A DNA stretch of 64,000 nt from Acidobacteriota bacterium (lineage in GTDB: Bacteria > Acidobacteriota > Thermoanaerobaculia > Multivoradales > Multivoraceae). The DNA is taken from the NCBI GenBank assembly GCA_028875725.1, contig JAPPCR010000006.1, positions 937,786-1,001,785 of the forward strand, written 5' to 3'. Shown here in pieces: positions 5,829 through 8,733 of this stretch. Numbering within the stretch: position 1 is the stretch's first letter; each line of letters starts with the position of its first letter. The notes beneath the pieces were generated by a model, which was given only the letters and a program-made list of their open reading frames with translations, made no database searches and had not been told where the DNA came from. Both the position numbers and the translations under genes were made by a program.

Positions 5829-6326
5829 TCAGTCCTCCCTGCCTGGGGTGTTGGGTCGTGTCTCCCGGTCGCTTCCCGGCGCCGGCCGGAAGCGCAGGGC
5901 GACGCCGTTGTTGCAGTAGCGGAGGCCGGTTGGCGCCGGCCCGTCGCTGAAGACGTGGCCCTGGTGCCCGCCGCAGCGGGAGCAGTGGTACTCGGTTCGG
6001 GGAACGATCAGCTTGAAGTCCCGCTTCGTGTCGACGGCGCCGGCGATGGGCTCGAAGAAACTGGGCCAGCCCGTGCCGCTCTCGAACTTCGCATCCGACC
6101 GGAACAACTCGGCGCCGCAGCCGGCGCAGAGGAAGACACCGCTTCGGCGCTCCCGGTTGAGCGTCGAAGTGAAGGGGCGTTCGGTTGCCTCCCGCCGCAG
6201 GACACGGAACTCGTCGTGGCCGAGTCTTGCCCGCCACTCGGATTCCGGGAGGTCGAGCCGGTCGTTGTTCTCCATGTAGGGGGCGCCCGAATCGGGCGCC
6301 GGCGCTCGGCGATCCTCGGTCGTCAT
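5829..6326 (-). CDS. msrB: Peptide-methionine (R)-S-oxide reductase MsrB
   Basis: Reduces methionine-R-sulfoxide in proteins back to methionine. The 165-residue protein has the four zinc cysteines as two CxxC pairs (Cys67/Cys70 in CAGCG and Cys115/Cys118 in CSRCGG), the SGTGWPSF block, HQGHVFSDGP and the catalytic Cys138 in RYCNNGVALRF. The active residue is Cys, not selenocysteine. An alternative start at Met18 would give a more typical length. It lies upstream of the esterase gene in one operon and is divergent from the selenoprotein gene, with only 27 bases between start codons. No signal peptide is visible, so it is probably cytoplasmic. Confidence 0.95.
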   Translation of the reverse strand: MTTEDRRAPAPDSGAPYMENNDRLDLPESEWRARLGHDEFRVLRREATERPFTSTLNRERRSGVFLCAGCGAELFRSDAKFESGTGWPSFFEPIAGAVDTKRDFKLIVPRTEYHCSRCGGHQGHVFSDGPAPTGLRYCNNGVALRFRPAPGSDRETRPNTPGRED

Positions 6327-6353: not shown

Positions 6354-7259
6354 ATGGACGCCATGACGACACGACGACCGCCGGTGGACCACATCGTTCG
6401 TACGCGCGACCTCTACTCGAGCCTGGGCCACGATCCCTATCGATGGGTGCGCAACGATGGCTCACCTCCGTGGACCGAGCTCACGAAACCCCTCCCGGAG
6501 TGTCGAGTGGGGCTGGTTGGCTCCGGTGGCGTGTACCGCGCGGGGCAGGTCGCCTTCCATCATCGGGACGACATCTCGCTGCGTGTGATCGATACGTCGG
6601 TTCCCGTCTCGGAACTGCGAACGAGCCACTTCGCCTACGACCAGACCGATGCGCGTATCGACCCGAACGTCGTCTTCCCGGTCGACACGCTGCACGCCCT
6701 CGTGGCCGAGGGCGTGATCGGTGAACTGTCGCCGCGGGCCTACGCCTTCATGGGGGGGATCTACTCGGCCCGCCGCGTTCGGGAGGTGGTGGCGCCGGAG
6801 ATCAGCCGCCGTCTCGCGGAGGATCAGGTCGACTTGGCCTTGCTGGTCCCCGTGTGACCGGTCTGCCATCAGTCCGTGGGACTGATTGCCCGTCGGGTTG
6901 AGGCGGATGGCATTCCGACGACGTCGCTGACCTCCGCGCTCTCGATCACCCGCTCGGTCGATCCTCCGCGCGCCGTCTTCCTCGACTACCCCCTTGGCCA
7001 TACCGCGGGCAAGGCGAAGGACCCGGAACTGCAGCGCGAGATCGTCGCCGCCGCGCTCGCGGCTGTGGACGAGCTCGAGCGCCCGGGCGCGGTGAAGATG
7101 CTGCCGTACCACTGGTCCCGCGACGACGACTGGAAGCGCGAGACGATGCTTGGCGGCGACACCCGGAGCCATCGCTCGAGGAGCGCGGAGTACCAGTGCG
7201 AAGCTGACCGGGCGCTCGCGGCAGCCGCCGGGGACTGTCCGACCTGCGTCTTTCTGTGA
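6354..7259 (+). CDS. Selenoprotein, GrdB/PrdB-like (glycine/betaine/D-proline reductase selenoprotein B family), UGA recoded
   Basis: One 301-residue protein if the in-frame TGA at 6855-6857 is read as selenocysteine (Sec168). Before the TGA the frame encodes family-typical blocks: DHIVRTRDLYSSLGHDPYRW, GLVGSGGVY, RTSHFAYDQTDARIDPNVVF, AYAFMGGIYSARRVRE and LALLVPV. After it the same frame continues PVCHQSVGLIAR, AVFLDYPLGHTAGKA and ends GDCPTCVFL. The Sec therefore sits in a U-x-x-C redox motif (Sec168, Cys171), with a second CxxC at the C-terminus. A SECIS-type hairpin follows the TGA. No GrdA, GrdC or PrdA partner is nearby, so the substrate is unknown; a stand-alone reductase role is inference. 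ATG 6354 or 6363 could start translation; neither has a strong ribosome site. A gene finder would split this gene at the TGA. Confidence 0.9.
6865..6889 (+). promoter_or_regulatory. Bacterial SECIS element for selenocysteine insertion
   Basis: Directly after the in-frame TGA (6855-6857) lies a hairpin with a perfect 8-bp upper stem, ATCAGTCC (6868-6875) with GGACTGAT (6879-6886), closed by the triloop GTG. Two further pairs lie below one C-U mismatch (6865-6866 with 6888-6889). The loop begins with G and starts 18 bases after the TGA; published bacterial SECIS models want a G in the first loop positions and a UGA-to-loop distance of about 16-37 bases. The element lies inside the coding region, as usual for SelB-dependent insertion in bacteria. 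Confidence 0.82.
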
Positions 7260-7816: not shown

Positions 7817-7881
7817 GTAGGGCACTCTCGGGTCGGATCCTCCCCATGTTGGTGGGGCGTCGGCCTGTTAGCGTATCGCCA

Positions 7882-8733
7882 ATGGAGCCGCTTGAGCGAC
7901 TCGACGACTGGGACGACTTCGTTGCCGAGCTCTATCCGACGCCGGTGGAGTCGGGCGGCAAGCGGCGGGAGGACTACCGGGACTTCGAGGCGCCTCCGCG
8001 GGACACCGTGCGCGAGTTCTACCGGCTGAACCACCGTCACCAGACCTGGGAGTTCGTCCAGTACAAGAAGGCGGAGTACCTCACACTCGACCGCGCTGAG
8101 CTGTCGGCCTGGGAGGCGCTGGAGTTTCTGAACACGCTGGTCGACGACTCGGATCCGGATCTGGACCTCTCGCAGCTCGATCACCTGCTGCAGACGGCCG
8201 AGGCGATCCGGGCCGACGGACACCCCGACTGGTTCGTGCTGGCCGGACTCGTACACGACCTGGGCAAGGTCCTTTGCCTGTGGGGCGAACCGCAGTGGGC
8301 CGTCGTCGGCGACACCTTCCCGGTCGGCTGCGCGTTCTCGGACCGGATCGTCTATCCGGAGCTGTTCGAGGGCAACCCGGACACGGCGCATTCGACCTAC
8401 TCGACGCCGCTCGGAGTGTACGAACCGGGCTGCGGCCTGGACCAGGTTCACCTGTCCTGGGGTCACGACGAGTACCTCTACCAGGTGCTCAACGACTACC
8501 TGCCGGAGCAGGCCCTCTACATGATCCGCTACCACTCGTTCTACGCGTGCCACCGCGAAGGCGCGTACCGGGAGCTGATGAACGACCGCGACCGCGAGAT
8601 GTTCGCCTGGGTCAGGCTGTTCAACGGCTACGACCTGTACTCCAAGAGCGACCGTCCGCCGGACGCCGCCGAGCTGCGGCCGTACTACCAGGGGCTGATC
8701 GACAAGTACCTGCCGGCGCAGTTGAATCTGTAG
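7882..8733 (+). CDS. Inositol oxygenase (myo-inositol to D-glucuronate), animal-like
   Basis: Di-iron oxygenase converting myo-inositol and O2 to D-glucuronate. The 283-residue protein aligns over its whole length with animal MIOX as I remember it, with shared blocks [23 protein letters not shown] and [13 protein letters not shown]. The six iron ligands of mouse MIOX have equivalents here: His101 ([12 protein letters not shown]), His125 and Asp126 (HDLGK), His195 (WGHDEY), His218 (YHSF) and Asp251 (NGYDLY). Length also matches (mouse 285). Start ATG 7882 is chosen by this alignment; an upstream ATG at 7846 adds unconserved residues. It converges on the YfcC-type carrier gene with a 9-base gap. 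The sugar importer 4 kb away may supply its substrate (inference). Confidence 0.94.

Follow-up and report, generated by a model that had tools for sequence, protein, structure and literature searches.

The gene described here lies in a window (the whole stretch of DNA that was analysed, 64,000 nucleotides) of a 4.54-Mb genome that is 98% complete. The closest public genomes are Thermoanaerobaculia/Acidobacteriota MAGs, including 'Candidatus Multivorans thiocomprendens', and from isolate names and general knowledge we take the host to be sponge-associated. The features of the locus, in window coordinates, are as follows.

6363..7259, + strand: coding sequence of a PrdB/GrdB-like selenoprotein, 298 aa, with Sec as residue 165
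6855..6857, + strand: in-frame TGA, read as selenocysteine
6855..6866, + strand: redox motif UPVC, placed by the predicted model at the N-terminal tip of a helix
6868..6886, + strand: SECIS-like hairpin ATCAGTCC-GTG-GGACTGAT (from covariation)
7236..7247, + strand: C-terminal CPTC, a CxxC pair of the near clade
5829..6326, - strand: msrB, a divergent neighbour with genus-only synteny, not counted in the system

The frame at 6354-7259 (+) is interrupted once, by the TGA at 6855-6857, whose surrounding residues read VPV-U-PVC. A first-pass annotation had read one frame across this TGA with a UPVC motif, and the genus bears this out, as all 21 of its 21 aligned genomes have one TGA at the same codon with homology on either side. 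One genome from another genus of the family also keeps exactly one TGA there. Aligning homologues for U or C at this position, a check proposed in that annotation, gives TGA in 68 distinct sequences and TGC or TGT (Cys) in 10, and [U/C]-P-x-C is found at the site in all of these TGA and Cys versions. In the contig search, the TGA loci come from Binatota, Acidimicrobiia, Gammaproteobacteria, Deltaproteobacteria-labelled sequences and Chloroflexota, and the Cys-codon versions from Desulfobacteraceae, Burkholderiales and Rhizobiaceae. Beyond the TGA, dN/dS is ~0.06-0.26 (Nei-Gojobori, against 19 congeners), which argues that the tail is translated and constrained by purifying selection. The start is probably ATG 6363 rather than 6354, since one congener (L061) has an in-frame stop immediately 5' of the codon matching ATG 6363, and in most congeners the homologous stretch starts with MTTRRPPVD. 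Thus, Sec is more likely residue 165 of 298 than residue 168 of 301, the numbering that follows from the earlier start at 6354.

The hairpin begins 10 nt 3' of the UGA and has its apical loop at 18-20 nt. Across 41 distinct Sec sites, 89% of its cells pair, compared with 9-51% after shifting the partner 1-3 columns. Double-sided changes occur in 21 cells, affecting four pairs, versus 7.1 in shuffles (0/500). The folding energy of the window's copy is below that of all 300 codon-preserving shuffles (z -2.7). The mean folding z over all Sec sites is -1.8 and several Acidimicrobiia are near 0, so the hairpin signal differs between clades. In the Cys versions, two of the inner hairpin pairs are mostly broken. 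A search of the same genome for the selenocysteine machinery, as had also been proposed, finds all four components: selA, selB (two pieces that share an 812-codon frame and jointly score 350.5 bits), selD and the tRNA-Sec gene selC with anticodon UCA. All 21 genus genomes have selA, which is marginal in one fragmented assembly (G012) and in two pieces in two others (G013, G016). At the level of sequence, the conserved TGA, the exchange with Cys, the purifying selection, the covarying hairpin and the presence of selA, selB, selD and tRNA-Sec demonstrate that this member of the PrdB/GrdB superfamily is a selenoprotein gene with a UGA-encoded Sec.

The same evidence bears on the reading in which the TGA terminates translation, leaving the ORF from GTG 6876 as a gene of its own or a decayed tail, or in which the TGA is a sequencing error. 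Gene callers would be expected to give two ORFs here. However, the TGA is kept in 21 congeners and in other phyla, Sec and Cys are exchanged at the site, a SECIS-like hairpin follows, dN/dS stays low beyond the codon, and the genome has the full Sec machinery. We consider this reading refuted by these sequence data and give it next to no probability.

The genome also encodes a second, distant Sec paralogue (35% identity). This GrdB/PrdB-like gene with an in-frame TGA (G000:C23:567162-567797, - strand; L118:9120-10490) has the motif CPV-U-PNC and its own strong post-TGA hairpin, CCGCGCC-GTG-GGCGCGG. It is divergent from an aldehyde dehydrogenase gene and is retained in many congeners. In a gammaproteobacterial contig, a partial copy (L079:4252-4707) that comprises the C-terminal half with a CPGC tail and no UGA part is found ~1.6 kb downstream of the complete gene, and is perhaps a decayed duplicate.

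The gene is indeed divergent from msrB, as the first-pass annotation described. The gap of 27 bases given there becomes 36 when counted from the msrB start at 6326 to ATG 6363. The block from a DEAD-box gene to MIOX, which includes msrB and the selenoprotein gene, is syntenic throughout the genus, and msrB adjoins the gene in no locus found outside it. A meaningful link to msrB is therefore not upheld, and the adjacency is genus-level synteny. The MIOX gene, a bacterial myo-inositol oxygenase (PF05153, 1.3e-110), lies downstream at 7876-8733 (+) of the window and is conserved in the genus. We also looked for a partner through the neighbourhood, and rejected this route because the tested loci have unrelated neighbours with no family common across clades; these include a hydrolase, an ion channel, a methyltransferase, a SufB-like protein, an aminopeptidase, an enoyl-CoA hydratase, an exonuclease-type protein, an FAD oxidoreductase and an SDR. 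The only shared neighbour is a class III CoA-transferase (PF02515) that is limited to Cys forms, adjoining them in Desulfobacteraceae (L092:4817-5971) and Burkholderiales (L110:7118-8311 and L113:6902-8302). It is possible that this neighbour hints at the substrate class of the Cys forms. A phage origin was considered and set aside, with one weak match only.

The predicted model has a mean pLDDT of 94.8 and a pTM of 0.93. In this model, a helix (residues 169-184) starts directly after Sec, and a Cys lies three residues past Sec. Foldseek with the model gives nothing at E <= 0.001, and no sequence relative was found in the PDB. The best VIA-align match is microcystinase C (Z 8.0, rmsd 4.0, 157 aligned), which stands among many Rossmann-like rows and is at background level; we therefore claim no fold relatives.

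By profile, the protein scores 41.3 bits against the GRDB superfamily PF07355, above the Pfam gathering cut-off of 22. Its score with the PrdB model TIGR04483 (169.3 bits, 9e-50, 219 residues aligned) is below the curated cut-off of 300. The scores with the GrdB models TIGR01917 (57.7 versus 602.2) and TIGR01918 (61 versus 65.45) are also below cut-off, and with these the C-terminal part alone aligns. In the tree, clostridial PrdB falls outside all stand-alone sequences (SH-aLRT 96), and a clade of 52 rows (support 94) takes in the window protein's congeners together with all loci that have the C-terminal CxxC. This is a quick tree with a long branch to GrdB, and its deeper order is unsure. 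The protein belongs to a clade that is separate from clostridial PrdB and spread over several phyla.

The C-terminal CPTC had been proposed as a resolving pair. As a conserved clade feature it stands, since 57 of 60 near-clade Sec members have the CxxC (the exceptions are L095, L097 and L099). However, it tracks the clade and not Sec as such, being found in 0/10 Cys forms and in 0/9 Sec forms of other branches. Only one Cys form, L092, branches within the near clade. It is without the CxxC, but as a single event this proves nothing on coupling between Sec and the tail. Beyond the redox motif, the residues AYDQTDAR, PLGHT and FMGGIYS are strongly conserved.

In the known reductases, the GrdB- and PrdB-type subunits work with partner proteins, and the first-pass annotation had stated that no other complex gene is present in the window. 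This holds and can be extended to the whole genome. The search for PF09338, the family of both PrdA and GrdE, covered 29 distinct genomes that carry the gene; PF09338 is absent from the genome of the window (G000) and from all tested congeners, and was detected in the positive controls, the P. acidaminophilum megaplasmid and a Terrisporobacter plasmid. In the megaplasmid record (L120), a PrdA-like frame (PF09338) at NZ_CP007453.1:258999-260039, missing from the gene table that was used, lies directly upstream of the listed prdB. GrdA (PF04723), sought in a smaller set of genomes than PF09338, is likewise absent from the genome of the window and from the congeners tested, with its positive controls detected. 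In two distant carriers (the genomes of L087 and L091), GrdA and PF09338 proteins are encoded elsewhere. COX1, a haem-copper oxidase, is found in 10 of the 10 carrier genomes tested, which indicates that the carriers, in contrast to classical Stickland fermenters, have the equipment to respire oxygen. Because of the sub-cut-off scores, the absence of PrdA/GrdE and GrdA, and the haem-copper oxidases of the hosts, the protein is neither a D-proline nor a glycine reductase of the known kind.

It could still be a subunit of a complex like D-proline, glycine or betaine reductase, with a pyruvoyl partner encoded elsewhere and too divergent to detect. The PrdB homology (9e-50) fits such a role, as do the PF09338 proteins of the two distant carriers and the example of FarE, a partner able to lose the pyruvoyl cysteines (PMC10838667). 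We nonetheless regard it as quite improbable, as PF09338 is missing from the own genome and the congeners under a search that detects true PrdA and GrdE, GrdA is missing too, the carriers have haem-copper oxidases, and a conserved neighbour is lacking. Against stand-alone action also stands the chance that a partner of an unknown family is encoded elsewhere.

Since the fermentation partner proteins are missing from the genome, the reaction is probably a different reduction from those of proline and glycine reductase. An undescribed redox reaction had been suggested in the first-pass annotation. Such a reaction is likely, but the family is not itself undescribed, because UxxC 'PrdB' proteins have been in surveys since 2005 (PMC1088965, PMC2398784). 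We put at roughly even the chance that the protein acts by itself as a Sec reductase on an electrophilic small molecule; it would need neither a Stickland complex nor a pyruvoyl group and would be recycled by thioredoxin via the C-terminal pair. This proposal draws on what has been put forward for PrdB, where the PrdA pyruvoyl holds the substrate, Sec attacks the alpha carbon, and a PrdB cysteine frees the product to give a mixed selenide-sulphide that PrdC reduces (PMC3091704); in glycine reductase, thioredoxin is the reductant (PMC3091704). If the same Sec/Cys chemistry proceeds minus pyruvoyl activation, the substrate would be electrophilic by itself. The enzyme would work outside a Stickland complex, and the selenolate of U165 (168 in the earlier numbering), at the helix tip, would attack an electrophilic small molecule without pyruvoyl activation. 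The Cys of UPVC would then complete the reaction to give a selenenyl-sulphide. From its conservation, the C-terminal CPTC is the candidate to take over this bond, and it may in turn be reduced by a thioredoxin-type donor. A proposed precedent for a role beyond amino acids, with a partner that is without the pyruvoyl-forming cysteines, is FarB with FarE, for which C-F cleavage has been proposed (PMC10838667).

The main rival to a metabolic reductase is a selenol peroxidase or general antioxidant, in which U would reduce peroxides, UPVC and CPTC would recycle it, and the protein would protect the aerobic cell and convert no metabolite. The hosts are aerobic, the UxxC with a second CxxC resembles thiol-peroxidase recycling, msrB is a neighbour within the genus, and a paper appears by its title, 'Peroxidase activity of selenoprotein GrdB', among the citations of PMC3091704. 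Yet the model has no clear thioredoxin- or peroxiredoxin-like match, the msrB adjacency is confined to synteny within the genus, and the strong conservation of AYDQTDAR, PLGHT and FMGGIYS suggests a specific substrate. We hold the peroxidase role to be rather unlikely.

The kind of protein is already known, as UxxC 'PrdB' ranks with the most frequent selenoprotein families in published marine surveys. In the Sargasso Sea data, it was third by abundance among known selenoprotein families, with 42 genes (PMC1088965), and the GOS report gives 235 Sec and 110 Cys 'PrdB' members (PMC2398784). 'Proline reductase' makes up 6.4% of 4,324 selenoprotein genes in a later survey (PMC9402790), and another later one also repeats the 'PrdB' family (PMC9312934). 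On 'GrdB-like' and 'PrdB-like' proteins, our literature search, of incomplete coverage, found only work on fluoroacetate and on rumen Synergistota. We suggest that the naming of the family is probably wrong. It is an evenly balanced proposition that this clade, from oxygen-respiring Acidobacteriota, Binatota, Acidimicrobiia, Gammaproteobacteria and Chloroflexota, constitutes a selenoenzyme of its own that needs no pyruvoyl group. Tallied under 'proline reductase' in marine selenoproteomes for twenty years, it would in fact carry out another reduction, using a C-terminal CxxC relay. If, as here, the carriers of many marine 'PrdB' genes respire and have no PrdA, a sizeable part of marine selenium use has been assigned the wrong reaction. 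For finding the substrate, there is a good base in a conserved clade, a clear SECIS and a model of high confidence.

Among known systems, PrdB of Clostridia (TIGR04483) shares ~215 homologous residues with the protein, at 35-36% identity to the Terrisporobacter and P. acidaminophilum sequences. Both have U-x-x-C with Sec and both are without the N-terminal half of GrdB. They differ in the motif, UGTCHRS in PrdB versus UPVCHQS here, in two additions of the present protein, a PYRW region at the N terminus and a CxxC tail at the C terminus, and in the setting, a genome with no PrdA and hosts with terminal oxidases. In GrdB, GrdF and GrdH (glycine, sarcosine and betaine reductase; PF07355), the C-terminal part around UxxC matches, whereas the protein here is without the N-terminal half and without UxxCxxC, in a genome with no GrdA or GrdE. 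The proteobacterial Cys forms (L022, L023, L110, L113), relatives that go by the NCBI name 'glycine/sarcosine/betaine reductase selenoprotein B family protein', belong to the same superfamily and have a stand-alone gene with CP[VI]CHQ, but they have Cys for Sec, the C-terminal CxxC is missing, and the inner SECIS pairs are mostly broken. The fluoroacetate reductase FarB/FarE of Cloacibacillus (PMC10838667) is likewise a case of a GrdB-like Sec protein outside amino-acid reduction. However, FarB is encoded with FarE in an anaerobe, and no PF09338 partner was found here. The 'Proline reductase PrdB' of the Sargasso Sea and GOS data, as the available parts of both reports present it, also has Sec, UxxC and pfam07355, is common in marine bacteria, and was named by homology only (PMC1088965, PMC2398784); those parts contain no discussion of an absent PrdA, of a C-terminal CxxC or of how the clades are structured. 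Judged by these descriptions, this set very likely includes the present clade.
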